A stretch of 31,208 bases of DNA from a virus, in the IMG/VR virus record IMGVR_UViG_3300027486_000018, positions 1-31,208 of that record; one strand, 5' to 3'. Positions 20,513 to 29,963 of this stretch are shown here, piece by piece (the stretch's first letter is position 1; every line of letters begins with the position of its first letter). Below the pieces are notes generated by a model. The model saw only the letters and a program-made list of their open reading frames with translations. It did not search any database and was not told the origin of the DNA. Made by a program: the position numbers and the translations under genes.

Positions 20513-21028
20513 GTGCTGGTACCTGACCACGAGATTCGCCGGCTGTGCAAGCAGCATTCAATGCTGCAGCCATACAACGAGGAACAGCTCAACCCAGCCA
20601 GTTATGACGTGACGCTCGGCAGCAGGATCATGATCGAGGTTGCCGATACGCCTGATCTGCAAGTGATAGAGATCCTCGGTCACACAGCAGACGATCCGTA
20701 CCTGATTCAGCCGGGTGAGTTCTTCTTGGCTGAAACGCAGGAAATCTTCAACCTGCCCTCATACATCGGGGCGCAGTTCGTGCTGAAATCAAGCCGCGCG
20801 CGCGAGGGTTTTGATCATGCAGAGGCCGGTTGGTGCGACCCGAGCTGGTATGGCAGCCGTCTAACAATGGAACTATGCAATCAACGTCGTTTGCATCCGC
20901 TAGGAATCTGGCCAGGTATGAAAATTGGACAGATGAAATTTTTGCTTGTGAGTGGTGAGCCCGAAGTTGGATACGATCAGAAAGGCCGCTACAACTGCGA
21001 TTTGGGCGTCACTAGCAGCAAAGGCTAA
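20513..21028 (+). CDS. dcd: dCTP deaminase
   Basis: 171-residue enzyme converting dCTP to dUTP, the first step to dTTP. Diagnostic motifs are 'LNPASYDVTLG' (26-36), 'LKSSRAREGFDHAEAGWCDP' (91-110) and 'RLTMELCN' (116-123), followed by 'WPGMKIGQMKFL'. By comparison with the E. coli enzyme, Ser93, Arg97 and Glu120 are the likely active-site residues. No separate dUTPase is visible, so the dUTP might be handled by a host enzyme. The start is a GTG four bases after the endolysin stop, meaning it is probably expressed with the lysis genes, an unusual place for a nucleotide enzyme. Confidence 0.88.
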   Translation: MLVPDHEIRRLCKQHSMLQPYNEEQLNPASYDVTLGSRIMIEVADTPDLQVIEILGHTADDPYLIQPGEFFLAETQEIFNLPSYIGAQFVLKSSRAREGFDHAEAGWCDPSWYGSRLTMELCNQRRLHPLGIWPGMKIGQMKFLLVSGEPEVGYDQKGRYNCDLGVTSSKG

Positions 21029-22957: not shown

Positions 22958-23184
22958 TCCGCCTCACCAGCAGCAGGCTGGTGATAGATGCGTTCGAGCA
23001 ACATGCTGGCTGGTTCATCCGGGCCATCAGTCACATAGGCAGCCACCGGGTCAGTGCCATCTGATGCCACATAGATGCAGCCATAGCCATAGGGCTTAAC
23101 GACCACCAAGCCGGTATTGCGACTGCGCGACAGGATGCGAAGCGCCAGCCGCTCGATCAGATTCAAGCCAGGCAGGCGAGTCAT
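22954..23184 (-). CDS. Small unknown protein
   Basis: 76-residue protein with a basic N-terminal helix ('LNLIERLALRILSRSRNTGL') and a beta-rich Gly/Asp part ('VVVKPYGYGCIYVASDGTDP', 'VTDGPDEPASMLLERIY'). Two adjacent ATGs (23187 and 23184) follow GGAGGG; the second has the better spacing. The upstream extension in the same frame overlaps the DUF3310 gene and is not protein-like. Coupled on both sides by short overlaps. Confidence 0.6.
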   Translation of the reverse strand: MTRLPGLNLIERLALRILSRSRNTGLVVVKPYGYGCIYVASDGTDPVAAYVTDGPDEPASMLLERIYHQPAAGEAE

Positions 23185-23405
23185 CATCCCTCCAGTTTGG
23201 CGATAAGACGGGCGAGATACCACTGGCACTTACGGGCATCCTCGAGCGCATTGCCCTTGCACCAGATGCGCAGCAGGTATTTCAGCGCTTGGCCCTGCAG
23301 GTATGCGGGCACCATGTGCGGCGCATCGGTGACTGCTGCCTCGATCACGTCGATTGCCTCGACTGGGCCGCGGCGGTAGTGCGATGGGTTGATTGGGTCT
23401 GGCAT
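23184..23405 (-). CDS. DUF3310 family protein
   Basis: 73-residue protein matching the short phage family DUF3310: 'INPSHYRRGPVEAIDVIEA' at the start, 'ALKYLLRIWCKGNALEDARK' in the middle and 'CQWYLARLIAKLEG' at the end. The family is widespread in phages and often linked to nucleotide metabolism genes; its biochemical role is not established. It overlaps the next gene by one to four bases. Confidence 0.85.
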   Translation of the reverse strand: MPDPINPSHYRRGPVEAIDVIEAAVTDAPHMVPAYLQGQALKYLLRIWCKGNALEDARKCQWYLARLIAKLEG

Positions 23406-23420: not shown

Positions 23421-23681
23421 CTACTTGGCTTCAAGTTCGTTGGCAATAATGAGGATCTCGTAGAGAGCATCCATGTACCCTTCAACGTAGTTCTGATGCA
23501 CGTAGTTAATGTCTTCAATGGTTTTCTCTGGAGTCACTGCATTGACAGCAGCGCGAAGGGCGTCAGAGATCTGAGCTTCGTGGTCCTGAATCCATTCGCC
23601 ACTGTCGTTGTAGTAGCCATCACTGGCGACTTTGTAGGCATACATAACTGCTTGAGCAGCAGGTGAAAGTTGTTGAGTCAT
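23421..23681 (-). CDS. 'SPAAQAV' family protein, copy D
   Basis: 86-residue acidic helical protein. It shares with three genes further upstream in the operon the start 'LSPAAQAVMYAYKVA', a central 'ALRAAVNAVTP' and an end 'ILIIANELEAK'. The middle differs, being Tyr/Asn-rich ('NYVHQNYVEGYMDALYE'). It is separated from its neighbours by 12-15 bases instead of overlapping them. It is the most diverged full-length copy and is split from the others by one unrelated gene. Function unknown. Confidence 0.75.
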   Translation of the reverse strand: MTQQLSPAAQAVMYAYKVASDGYYNDSGEWIQDHEAQISDALRAAVNAVTPEKTIEDINYVHQNYVEGYMDALYEILIIANELEAK

Positions 23682-23693
23682 TAGTTGATCGGA

Positions 23694-23948
23694 CTAAGAG
23701 GGTTCGTAGGTGGCAGCAAAGATGTCAGGCTTGCAAGGGTAGAACTCCCCCTTGATGCCGCGAATAATCCAGTCGCCGGGACTAGCAGCATGCGTGCCTT
23801 CCAGGGTCTCAATCAACAGGTGGTAACCATCGCAGCATGCGTCGCCACCTTGCTCGAGAATCCAGTTGGTGACCTCCACTGTATTAACAGCGGTGCCGCT
23901 GTACTGGCGAGCTTCGATTTGAACAGGTTTTTTGGTGAAGTAGGGCAT
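23694..23948 (-). CDS. Small conserved phage protein with 'PGDWIIRGIKGEFYPCKPDI' motif
   Basis: 84-residue protein with an N-terminal strand-rich part ('YFTKKPVQIEARQYSG'), a helix 'VTNWILEQGGD' and a conserved-looking C-terminus beginning 'SPGDWIIRGIKGEFYPC' and ending 'FAATYEPS'. This motif occurs in short accessory proteins of many unrelated phages; no function is established that I know of. It sits inside the array of SPAAQAV paralogues, suggesting insertion into or co-mobilisation with the array. Confidence 0.78.
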   Translation of the reverse strand: MPYFTKKPVQIEARQYSGTAVNTVEVTNWILEQGGDACCDGYHLLIETLEGTHAASPGDWIIRGIKGEFYPCKPDIFAATYEPS

Positions 23949-23962
23949 GATAGTGAGGTGGA

Positions 23963-24217
23963 CTACTGGGCTTCAAGCTCGGCGGCGATGGCGAGGAGAC
24001 TCAGCCTGATTTCGACCTTCTTTTGCAACGGTAAGGCGTGATTGCGGTCGAAGAATTCTTCTTCAAGGGCGGGCGGCACCACCTGATCCGCAACAGCACG
24101 CAGGGCGGCGGCGAGGGCCTCACGCTCCGGGTCGTGAGTTAGGCAGGTCACGTCGGGACTGAGCTTTTCCTCCCAGGCATCCAGAACTGCTTGAGCAGCG
24201 GGTGAAAGTTCAGACAT
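23963..24217 (-). CDS. 'SPAAQAV' family protein, copy C
   Basis: 84-residue helical protein: 'MSELSPAAQAVLDAWEEKL', 'ALAAALRAVADQVVPP', end 'LLAIAAELEAQ'. Its start region is almost the same in DNA as those of the copies starting at 24462 and 24692. The first and last thirds are well conserved and the middle varies in length, as in a scaffold with a variable insert. Function unknown. Confidence 0.75.
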   Translation of the reverse strand: MSELSPAAQAVLDAWEEKLSPDVTCLTHDPEREALAAALRAVADQVVPPALEEEFFDRNHALPLQKKVEIRLSLLAIAAELEAQ

Positions 24218-24234
24218 AGAAGTGATGTTGACTA

Positions 24235-24462
24235 CTATTCTCCGAGTTCGTAAAGCGGTAACTCTTCCAGCTCGTTCACGATGTCGAGCACGTCTTGGCG
24301 AATCTCAGGAGCGTTCTTGATGCGGACCGCCAGGGATGTGAGGGCAGCAGCTAGGCACGCTTCCTGCCAGTAGTCGGGTGAAGGTCCAGGGCGCCAGCAT
24401 TCTGCGTAACGCTCGCGGAATGCTGCGACTATGGCGCTGGTAGCGGGGGAAAGTTCAGACAT
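24235..24462 (-). CDS. 'SPAAQAV' family protein, copy B
   Basis: 75-residue acidic protein beginning 'MSELSPATSAIVAAFRERYA', with 'LAAALTSLAVRIKN' where its relatives have ALRAAADQVVP, and ending 'VLDIVNELEELPLYELGE'. The end is longer than in the other copies. The leader before the ATG matches that of copy C over about 20 bases. Function unknown. Confidence 0.75.
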   Translation of the reverse strand: MSELSPATSAIVAAFRERYAECWRPGPSPDYWQEACLAAALTSLAVRIKNAPEIRQDVLDIVNELEELPLYELGE

Positions 24463-24476
24463 AGAAGTGGAAGCGA

Positions 24477-24692
24477 CTACAGGGTTTCAAGCTCAACGGC
24501 AATGGCCAGAAGTTCGGCGCGTATTGCTGATGCGTGTACATCACAGCAAGAGTCATACGGAAGACGTGGCGCTGGAACCACCTGATCCGCAGCAGCTCGC
24601 AAAGCGGCAGCAATGTGCAACTGCACGATTCGAGACCCAGCACAGTTGCTGGCAGTAATTACCTCCTGAGCGGCAGGTGAAAGTTCAGACAT
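24477..24692 (-). CDS. 'SPAAQAV' family protein, copy A
   Basis: 71-residue protein beginning 'MSELSPAAQEVITASNCAGS', with 'IAAALRAAADQVVPAPRL' and end 'ELLAIAVELETL'. It is the first copy of the array and lies downstream of a 194-base non-coding stretch with an inverted repeat and possible promoter, so it probably opens a transcription unit. The centre has two adjacent cysteines. Function unknown. Confidence 0.75.
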   Translation of the reverse strand: MSELSPAAQEVITASNCAGSRIVQLHIAAALRAAADQVVPAPRLPYDSCCDVHASAIRAELLAIAVELETL

Positions 24693-25545: not shown

Positions 25546-25739
25546 GGTTCGAGGTGTTGGCGGATGCGGAGCAGCTCAGCGCAGAGCTGCTGGCGGTTGC
25601 GGATTCCAACGGTGCCGCACAGCTGGTCGATTCTGATGTCGATCAGCTGGCGGATCCGCTGGCGCTCCTCAGTCTGACCAGCCGTGAAGGCACTGGTGTC
25701 GCTCAGCAGCTGCTCGATGCGGTGGCGGATGTCGCTCAT
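25542..25739 (-). CDS. Small unknown coiled-coil-like protein
   Basis: 65-residue protein ('MSDIRHRIEQLLSDTSAFTA', 'EERQRIRQLIDIRIDQLCG', 'QQLCAELLRIRQHLEP'), rich in Arg, Gln and Leu and probably all helical. The true start is the ATG at 25739, which overlaps the stop of the RlpA-like gene. The upstream extension of the frame is only the antisense-like shadow of that gene. Function unknown; oligomerisation is likely. Confidence 0.7.
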   Translation of the reverse strand: MSDIRHRIEQLLSDTSAFTAGQTEERQRIRQLIDIRIDQLCGTVGIRNRQQLCAELLRIRQHLEP

Positions 25740-26059
25740 GGATGCGAGATACGGACTGTTGCAATGCCATCGAGCGGCACACCAAGGCGGTGCGCAGCAC
25801 CGGCGCTGAGATCGATCGAGCCGCAGTCGCACCGATCGGTGACGCGCACCGTGAGCGTGCGGCCGCGGTGGCTGACGCGCACCGGTGTGCCGCATGGCAG
25901 CCATGGATGCGCGGCGCTAATGCCCCAGTGCTGATAGGTGCTGCCACACGCCGTCTGGCGGCCGTGAAACCAGCCGTCATAAACGGTGGCAGTCACCTGC
26001 CGGGCGTGCACCGGGCTGGCCAGCAGCAGCGCTGCAGCGGTCAAGGCAGCGCGGATCAT
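25736..26059 (-). CDS. Exported RlpA-like double-psi beta-barrel protein
   Basis: 107-residue protein with a clear signal peptide (1-19, 'MIRAALTAAALLLASPVHA') and one double-psi beta-barrel (about 22-104). The RlpA landmarks are 'AAHPWLPCGTPVRV' with His51 and 'VRVTDRCDCGSIDLSAGAAH' with Asp75, positions matching catalytic His and Asp of RlpA lytic transglycosylases. The usual 'SGE' glutamate is replaced in 'TACGSTY', so activity is uncertain. Four cysteines (38, 56, 77, 79) could form two disulfides in the periplasm. Phage cell-wall proteins normally sit with lysis genes; this one is among small accessory genes. Confidence 0.85.
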   Translation of the reverse strand: MIRAALTAAALLLASPVHARQVTATVYDGWFHGRQTACGSTYQHWGISAAHPWLPCGTPVRVSHRGRTLTVRVTDRCDCGSIDLSAGAAHRLGVPLDGIATVRISHP

Positions 26060-28210: not shown

Positions 28211-28398
28211 TTGTTTTCGGGATTGATGGTGTTGGCCTGTTCGTAGAGCTCCACCTCGGCCAGGGGATAGAGCACGAAACCGGGAGTGCGGAAGTACGGC
28301 GGACCCTTGCCCGCATCACGCCATCGTTTCAGCGTGTCAGGGTGCAGTCCCCATCGCTGCGCCACCTGCGTGGCGGTGAGATAACTAGAAGAGTTCAT
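28207..28398 (-). CDS. Excisionase/MerR-type helix-turn-helix protein
   Basis: 63-residue winged-helix DNA-binding protein: 'YLTATQVAQRWGLHPDTLKR' (helix-turn-helix) followed by 'WRDAGKGPPYFRTPGFVLYP' (wing) and 'LAEVELYEQ'. This is the HTH_17/excisionase layout. It may act as a directionality factor or local regulator. With no integrase in the window, regulator is the safer call. It starts 14 bases inside the recT end and is coupled to the SSB-like gene. Confidence 0.85.
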   Translation of the reverse strand: MNSSSYLTATQVAQRWGLHPDTLKRWRDAGKGPPYFRTPGFVLYPLAEVELYEQANTINPENK

Positions 28399-29062
28399 CC
28401 TGATCAGTCTCTATGGGCTGTGCCGCCGGCTCGGGTGCAGGCTGAGCGATGGCAGCATTCAGATCCGCCACGCTGGTGGCTGGCGCTGCGGTCACCGTGA
28501 CTGGCTCCACGTCGAGCACCTCCTCCTGGCTCTGCATACCAAGCAGCATGTCGCTGGCATAAAGACGCCCCCAGAAGGCGGCGGCCCGGTAACGGATCAT
28601 CAGCTCCGGCATGGTCAGCCACTTGCTGCCGCTCTTAGTGGCCCAACCTTCTTTTTTCGCCATCGCCATCGTGATGGTGGGGCCTTTGAGCTCCTGGCCG
28701 CTGGCGAGATCCTTGGCGATGGCGTAGCAAGCGAGCGAGTCGCCCTCGCCGCTGAGCTCAAACCGCAGCGGGCTGAACCGGCCGCAGCCGTTCACCATCG
28801 CAATGATGAAGCTGCTGCTCCAGCTGGGGCGGCCGTGGATCACGTGCAGATGCTGCATGGCCAAGAACGGGCTGATGCCCATCCGGCCTGCAATCTCGAG
28901 CGCCACCAAGCAGTTGGCGAAACCCTGCTGCCCTTGAAACTGAGGCGGTATCAGCGTGCTGCTGGCTAGCGCCTTGGCAATCCGTTGAGCATCCTCGAAT
29001 GCTTGGATGCCAGAGAACACCGAGGCGCTCGGGCTGGTGGTGATGGCTGATTGTGCGTCCAT
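28385..29062 (-). CDS. recT: RecT-family single-strand annealing protein
   Basis: 225-residue recombinase that anneals complementary single strands. Family landmarks are 'FANCLVALEIAGRMGISPFL', 'MQHLHVIHGRPSWSSSFIIA', 'KGPTITMAMAKKEGWATKSG' and 'SKWLTMPELMIRYRAAAFWG'. The last ~45 residues are a Pro/Ala linker and an acidic end 'ETDQDELF', resembling an SSB-type tip. It follows the RecE-type exonuclease as in other Red/RecET modules. The pair would support double-strand break repair, concatemer formation and genome exchange. Confidence 0.93.
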   Translation of the reverse strand: MDAQSAITTSPSASVFSGIQAFEDAQRIAKALASSTLIPPQFQGQQGFANCLVALEIAGRMGISPFLAMQHLHVIHGRPSWSSSFIIAMVNGCGRFSPLRFELSGEGDSLACYAIAKDLASGQELKGPTITMAMAKKEGWATKSGSKWLTMPELMIRYRAAAFWGRLYASDMLLGMQSQEEVLDVEPVTVTAAPATSVADLNAAIAQPAPEPAAQPIETDQDELF

Positions 29063-29899
29063 TTAGTACATCTCGATTTCAGTGGTTGCCTGCTGCTGGC
29101 CCGGCTGCCCTGTCATCCAACCCGGCAGGCTGATGGTTTCGATCTGATCGCTGTAGCTCGGCCAGTGATCAGCGGCCTTGCAGACGGCCAGCTTGGCCAG
29201 ATCACGCATGGCCTGATCGTGACCGCGCTCGATCATCTCCGCATCGGCCGCATACACGGCGCACGCATACGGCGCGGTGGATTCCACGCATATGAAGATG
29301 AACTGATCCGGGCGCTTGCCGGTGGCCTGCTCAAGGCCGTGCAAGTACCAGGCCGCTTGCACGTGGTAGCGATAATCCGCCACGCTGCGCTTGAAGCCCT
29401 GAATGCTGGCGTTCTTGGTGGTCTTGAGATCCACCACGATGCTGCCGTCATCGGTCAGCCAATCTGGCCGGCACTTGCACTCAAGTCCGGTTGCGGCATC
29501 CGTCCACATATGTGTGGTCTCAGCCTTGCCCGGCAGGCCCAGCAGCATCGCAGCAGCAGGGTGACGCATCACTGCGCGACCCATCGCCATCACCTGCTCG
29601 GCATCGTCGGCGGTGATCACCGTCTTGCCGGCAGCATCAGCCTCGAATGCAGCCCATGATTCCTTGCCGGCCTTGGTGCGCCGATCCATTGGTGGCGCCA
29701 CGGCGATCTCCTGATCCCATCTGCTGAGCTCAAGCACGTGCGTGTGCAGCGCAGTGCCGAGTCGCATGGCTGCAGTTGGCTCTGGCGCTACACGATCAGG
29801 GTCCAGATACCGCGCCCAGTAGTGCAGCGGTGATCGCGCGATGAGATCCAGATGGGACTTTGAGACAGCAGGATGCGCGTGGTACGCGGCGTTGTCCAT
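29063..29899 (-). CDS. recE: RecE-type exonuclease (PD-(D/E)XK)
   Basis: 278-residue 5'-3' double-strand exonuclease. Nuclease core: 'RLGTALHTHVLE' (His52), 'LECKCRPDWL' (Asp146), 'VVDLKTTK' (Asp157, Lys159), and 'YRYHVQAAWY' (Gln181 motif). The N-terminal 'YHAHPAVSKSHLDLIARSPL' is typical of RecE C-terminal-domain-like phage exonucleases (DUF3799/PDDEXK_12). I chose the ATG at 29899; a TTG at 29941 in the same frame adds 14 residues and crosses the operator-like region. Immediately upstream of recT, as expected. Confidence 0.92.
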   Translation of the reverse strand: MDNAAYHAHPAVSKSHLDLIARSPLHYWARYLDPDRVAPEPTAAMRLGTALHTHVLELSRWDQEIAVAPPMDRRTKAGKESWAAFEADAAGKTVITADDAEQVMAMGRAVMRHPAAAMLLGLPGKAETTHMWTDAATGLECKCRPDWLTDDGSIVVDLKTTKNASIQGFKRSVADYRYHVQAAWYLHGLEQATGKRPDQFIFICVESTAPYACAVYAADAEMIERGHDQAMRDLAKLAVCKAADHWPSYSDQIETISLPGWMTGQPGQQQATTEIEMY

Positions 29900-29912
29900 G
29901 AGATGCGGCGGG

Positions 29913-29963
29913 TTGCCGGCAAATACTAGCGGATGCGGCAAGATGCGCTACGGTTTGCCGCAG
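29913..29963. promoter_or_regulatory. Triple palindromic operator between recE and helicase
   Basis: The divergent gap contains TTGCCGGCAA (29913-29922, perfect palindrome) and a 9-bp inverted repeat TGCGGCAAA (29934-29942) / TTTGCCGCA (29955-29963). The three elements share the half-site TTGCCG and their centres lie about 20.5 and 21 bp apart, two helical turns each, so a protein would bind on one face of the helix. It is positioned to control both transcripts. The direct repeat GATGCGGC (29902 and 29932) is partly the same sequence. Confidence 0.55.

Follow-up and report, generated by a model that had tools for sequence, protein, structure and literature searches.

The minus strand between positions 23421 and 24692 of the window, by which we mean the whole 31.2-kb virus record analyzed here, carries five genes, of which four are homologous and one is unrelated to the others. 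Each homolog is read as alternating constant blocks (N, M, and C) and variable cassettes (V1 and V2). Copy A (71 aa; 24477..24692, minus strand, start at 24692) has its N, M, and C blocks at 24651-24683, 24573-24611, and 24486-24512 (limits taken from the translation), with V1 (SNCAGSRIVQLHI) at 24612-24650 and V2 (APRLPYDSCCDVHASAIRAE) at 24513-24572. Copy B (75 aa; 24235..24462, minus strand) is the most diverged of the four, having a V1 of FRERYAECWRPGPSPDYWQEACL and a V2 that is nearly absent; its short ending type also occurs in the Synechococcus phage S-EIVl and in locus L012. Copy C (84 aa; 23963..24217, minus strand, start at 24217) has N, M, and C blocks at 24176-24208, 24074-24112, and 23972-23998, V1 (WEEKLSPDVTCLTHDPEREAL) at 24113-24175, and V2 (PALEEEFFDRNHALPLQKKVEIRLS) at 23999-24073. 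Copy D (86 aa; 23421..23681, minus strand, start at 23681) has its blocks at 23637-23669, 23529-23567, and 23430-23456, V1 (YKVASDGYYNDSGEWIQDHEAQI) at 23568-23636, and V2 (EKTIEDINYVHQNYVEGYMDALYE) at 23457-23528. The unrelated gene, which encodes a phrog_419-like protein of 84 aa (23694-23948, minus strand), lies between copies C and D. The family phrog_419 is widespread among phages, and this gene has DNA matches in phages of Gordonia, Microbacterium, and Stenotrophomonas. Open reading frames and alignment thus confirm the array of four related genes and one foreign gene that was reported in the first-pass annotation.

The relatedness of the four copies extends well beyond their first ten residues, since an iterated profile recovers all four of them along with family members in related phage loci; their whole-length alignment has 13 invariant columns. 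When scored for the blocks of the LSPAAQAV / AALRAAADQVVP family (N, M, and C, in order), copies A, C, and D pass, the last of these via an identical twin in L004, and copy B fails. Members of the family, whose proteins are about 80 aa long, are ordered N block (LSPAAQAVLDA), V1 (9 to 37 aa), M block (AAALRAAADQVVP), V2 (4 to 43 aa), and C block (LLAIAAELE). The earlier description of conserved ends around a variable middle therefore holds for the ends and for the variability of the centers, but the layout is really one of three constant blocks and two separately exchanged cassettes. Three of the copies had also been said to share their leader almost base for base: the three are indeed alike (TCCACTTCT, ATCACTTCT, and TCAACTTCC), but only over the last ~8 to 10 nt before the ATG, a shorter stretch than was claimed. 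Of 188 unique leaders in the family, 16 have the ACTTCT ending, which is thus a minority class, and scans for promoters and terminators returned nothing above chance.

Genes for the terminase, portal, head, tail, and endolysin can be recognized in the window, whose gene layout resembles that of the Synechococcus phage S-CBS3, with the structural genes and the small early genes on opposite strands. The endolysin DNA of S-CBS3 is 75% identical to that of the window, the tail-fiber region matches S-RIP1 in DNA comparison, and a 107-nt stretch of the lake phage DSL-LC07 matches at 93.5%. We infer from these likenesses that the window derives from a cyanosiphovirus of picocyanobacteria, and lake picocyanobacteria appear to be the hosts of the family's carriers. 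Near the array lie a dCTP deaminase gene (20513-21028, plus strand), a DUF3310 gene (23184-23405, minus strand), and a small RlpA-like gene (25736-26059, minus strand); these three are also found next to family members across two to five dozen loci. Farther along, genes for a RecT-like annealing protein (28385-29062, minus strand) and an exonuclease VIII-like protein (29063-29941, minus strand) adjoin each other. Such genes occur in the window and in few of the other carriers searched, and RecE/RecT was rejected as a general driver of exchange (of 48 carrier records, often fragments, 7 have phrog_412 and 3 have phrog_561).

Scans of IMG/VR with single members yielded 240, 88, 4, and 204 confirmed stretches (in overlapping sets). 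The iterated profile matched 364 times in the first 243 loci and 509 times once more loci were added, and 324 of the 509 matches are distinct copies with all three blocks. Among 49 large viral records searched over their whole length (38 to 201 kb), 48 hold one to seven copies. Cellular genomes contributed 4 matches in 84,980, all of them on MAG contigs, two of which also bear phage genes (topoisomerase II and a methyltransferase in L085; endolysin, exonuclease VIII, and integrase in L087). The cultured Synechococcus phages KBS-S-2A (CPKG_00014), S-CBS2 (gp066), and S-EIVl (AHV82184) each have one member in the stretches searched, annotated only as a hypothetical protein; these have the same blocks, and their cassette types recur in metagenome phages, where they are paired differently. 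The family is absent from S-CBS3 and DSL-LC07.

That this is a phage accessory family without a known function, as first proposed, agrees with the profile searches: the four window copies have no significant match in Pfam, PHROGs, or NCBIfam, nor do 92 members in PHROGs. The PDB holds no significant match to the family (best sequence E of 0.78), and structure searches, with a best Foldseek E of 1.2 and a best Z of 7.0 (not telling for a helical bundle), returned no relative with a known function. Literature searches retrieved no description of the family and, in the papers covered, no printed instance of its motifs. A diverse alignment of members left no stretch that was sufficiently conserved to serve as a search pattern. 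With one member at a time as the query, tblastn against cultured phages and plasmids gave no hit even at an E of 10, whereas a DNA query made from the constant blocks found the cyanophage members that tblastn had missed. Such protein searches are blind to the family because the low-complexity filter probably masks its alanine-rich blocks, and its absence from BLAST results is therefore not to be trusted.

Because the queries of the first scan themselves carry V1 and V2 types, which biases counts, the independence of the two cassettes was assessed on loci drawn by a 17-nt M-block pattern alone. Of the 122 matches to this pattern, 102 fall within complete family genes and about six within partial copies, whereas the others are chance-like. 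The 95 unique copies in this sample comprise 61 V1 types and 52 V2 types in 92 combinations. Three pairs of copies share both types, versus 1.7 expected (P = 0.24), and similarity in V1 is all but unrelated to similarity in V2 (Mantel r = 0.027, P = 0.086). At a stricter type threshold of 0.8, the same three joint pairs stand against 0.8 expected (P = 0.05), such that a trace of V1-V2 linkage between close relatives is likely. As a control, the first and last thirds of collinear neighbor genes of the same phages correlate at r values of 0.55 to 0.90. Judged from these sequence counts, V1 and V2 are near linkage equilibrium across the population. Copy C of the window illustrates the pattern: elsewhere, its V1 and its V2 each occur with unrelated partner cassettes.

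The boundaries of exchange are sharp. In pairs of copies that share only V1, DNA identity is ~0.85 over V1 and codons 0 to 9 of the M block and 0.25 to 0.30 from codon 13; in pairs that share only V2, it climbs from ~0.3 ahead of the M block to 0.84 at the first codon of that block. Beyond the gene, identity is lost within ~10 bases upstream of the N block, and on the downstream side it is at background after ~25 bases. Four cases show such joins. Loci L252 and L333 match at 96% over 5.1 kb, yet between their conserved N, M, and C blocks both cassettes have been replaced; in the collinear pair L223 and L272 (82%), one V1 has been exchanged for another in place; and L345 matches L005 at 91.8% for 1.4 kb rightward from the M-block edge, with no collinear match leftward. 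The weakest case is the junction between the window and L004, which share 99.97% identity across 3 kb starting inside the M block of copy C (24074-24112) and are unrelated directly to its left; it lies just 340 nt short of the L004 contig end. Demonstrably, as far as aligned genomes record it, diversity in the family arises by reassortment between phages.

Within cassette types, pN/pS is 0.14 for V1 and 0.20 for V2 (other reading frames give 1.5 to 2.2), and pS is 0.4 to 0.5; each cassette is therefore a maintained protein module of some age. An arms race could be read only from the reassortment, since the pN/pS values denote conservation within types and not rapid point evolution. Against a rough background, tryptophan is about twice as frequent in the cassettes, and tyrosine is raised in V1; the cassettes are aromatic and acidic in composition. 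Among the blocks, pS between random copies is lowest in M (0.41, versus 0.59 in N and 0.55 in C), and the M block has a strong position-by-position codon bias. Such a pattern would be expected if exchange needs matching DNA, a separate constraint at the DNA level being another possibility.

A second, unrelated family shows the same design. It is the commonest neighbor family, with relatives in 148 loci (e.g., L032:4518-4838, plus strand), and has four blocks around three cassettes (HPITPPPELVQQW ... AAQWGADQELEACCEWL ... RAARRPKPPSLKEQAL ... IRRALEQLPD, with the blocks also reading HPITPPPELVQQW ... ADQELEACCEWL ... RPKPPSLKEQAL ... IRRALEQLPD); it has no match in Pfam. Over 200 unique copies, the pairwise r values between its cassettes are 0.016 to 0.025. 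Joint repeats exceed chance (11 versus 2.1 for the first two cassettes), as expected if close relatives were sampled.

Shuffling could be neutral, the alanine-rich blocks being frequent recombination sites during co-infection and the cassettes being tolerated linkers that bring no advantage; that breakpoints fall on DNA-conserved blocks, that the M block has the lowest pS of the three, and that no locus-specific recombinase was seen would all fit such an account. We nevertheless judge it unlikely: the strong conservation within types (pN/pS of 0.14 to 0.20) implies that cassette sequence matters, and a selected plan is favored, although not decisively, by the recurrence of the pattern in the second family, whose block sequences are different.

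AlphaFold models of two window copies, C and D, are confident (pLDDT of 86.8 and 86.1) and place the N block in helix 1, the M block in helix 2, and the end of V2 plus the C block in helix 3. The two models differ in V1, which is a loop in one and includes a short beta hairpin in the other, and in V2 as well. The scaffold is thus confidently predicted to be three helices, with V1 as the connector of helices 1 and 2 and V2 as the connector of helices 2 and 3. From topology, the bundle is expected to have one cassette at each end, and each protein may therefore have two independent binding ends.

Taken together, we consider it somewhat better than an even bet that the array encodes three-helix scaffold proteins with reassorted cassettes that serve in host-facing binding. 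Different phages recombine at joins that fall within the short, DNA-conserved blocks, and one or both cassettes are thereby replaced while the frame, and presumably the fold, is kept. The cassettes would act as recognition surfaces for host molecules, with the constant helices merely their carrier, and each phage would deploy one to several different members in a putative role in host takeover or counter-defense. Recognition by the cassettes and a host target are suggested by the layout, the composition of the cassettes, the position of the genes, and the analogy to exchangeable recognition segments. Recombination or single-strand-binding genes lie nearby in isolates and in the window, and expression is therefore probably early. 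Host-interaction proteins that diversify, as already put forward in the first-pass annotation, are the best functional guess.

The partners of the cassettes might instead be phage proteins, with the family supplying adaptors in replication or packaging machinery that are matched to mosaic partners. In KBS-S-2A and S-CBS2, the member does have genes for SSB, exonuclease VIII, and a sigma factor close by. But carriers that range from 38 to 201 kb hold one to seven different copies, and neighbor genes do not track cassette types, making adaptors to phage machinery an improbable explanation.

Copies within a locus are often closely spaced, and in all 57 multi-copy loci they share one strand. The first-pass annotation had read the shared leaders as a sign of recent duplication of whole units. 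On this tandem-duplication account the centers would then have diverged quickly, and the head-to-tail order of the copies and the 8 to 10 nt of leader common to three of them would fit it. However, none of 46 pairs of adjacent copies has a V1 type or a V2 type in common, nor is the DNA of their blocks more similar than that of random pairs (identity of 0.73, versus 0.76 at random). As about one or two shared types are expected by chance, the absence of any speaks against duplication without proving avoidance. The unrelated partners with which both cassettes of copy C occur elsewhere, together with the slow protein-level change within types, also run counter to this origin, which is very hard to sustain. 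We give next to no credence to misassembly of metagenomes at short repeats as the source of the reassortment: although most of the sequences come from metagenome contigs and each sample contains repeats of the blocks, no exact run that spans the M-V2 junction reaches 31 nt in 77% of copies, isolate genomes are also recombinant, the swaps sit within long collinear contigs, and the same gene is recovered from several metagenomes (e.g., L056, L058, L059, and L063).

Reassortment of the cassettes has partial parallels. HsdS, the large DNA-binding subunit of type I restriction enzymes, has two variable recognition segments with conserved regions between them, and the segments are exchanged separately by recombination. 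The present family likewise has two separately exchanged segments but consists of ~80-aa helical proteins with no such partner seen. Targets of diversity-generating retroelements also bear variable residues on a fixed scaffold; there, single adenine positions change, whereas here whole cassettes of differing length are swapped, and PHROGs matches of the window proteins scanned include no reverse transcriptase. Ongoing domain shuffling has been described among otherwise unrelated phage proteins that have homologous fragments in common, was tied to host interaction, and was defined from sequence with a minimum shared length of 50 aa (Smug et al. 2023, PMC10684548). Its hot spots were receptor-binding proteins, endolysins, and replication proteins, and more shuffling was expected in accessory proteins and those of unknown function (PMC10684548). 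Our case is alike in that fragments are shuffled but differs in that the units (9 to 37 aa in V1 and 4 to 43 aa in V2) fall under that size limit, reside in accessory proteins of ~80 aa, and are near linkage equilibrium.

Phage mosaicism, described for large domains, here reaches segments of ~10 to 30 residues that have no clear linkage within one small gene. Part of the "dark" accessory genes thereby becomes readable as combinations from a limited cassette set, and phages that are near-identical except for the cassettes of one gene offer a natural experiment. If the cassettes are recognition surfaces, their catalog would point to the host molecules with which the phages contend, and the scaffold would be a small natural carrier of variable binding segments. 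More tentatively, and at somewhat less than even odds in our view, phages of lake picocyanobacteria may hold a population-wide combinatorial library of small binding proteins, in which a three-helix carrier presents two separately inherited recognition cassettes that unrelated phages reassort freely, and several unrelated families work alike; if so, this would be an evolved analog of antibody-like combinatorial diversity at the level of the phage community.

Two additional neighbor families look to be on the same plan as the main family. The third (FRALCAELV ... RARAALAQPEPQGPTDEEL ... ARWGRPAIEPVPVSERLPGPEDCDAEGRCWW ... WLPHHALPVP; e.g., L036:3440-3814 and L357:2548-2856, both plus strand) seems to be built of optional modules with variable inserts. 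The fourth (YKATPEQWA ... ACILELRARVEALEAAAHKHIVETSANILAL ... SLVERVALAI ... EARAAIREVAAWL; L122:3042-3530, plus strand) has constant blocks and variable inserts. In L070, a tail of the third-family type is joined to an N block from the main family.
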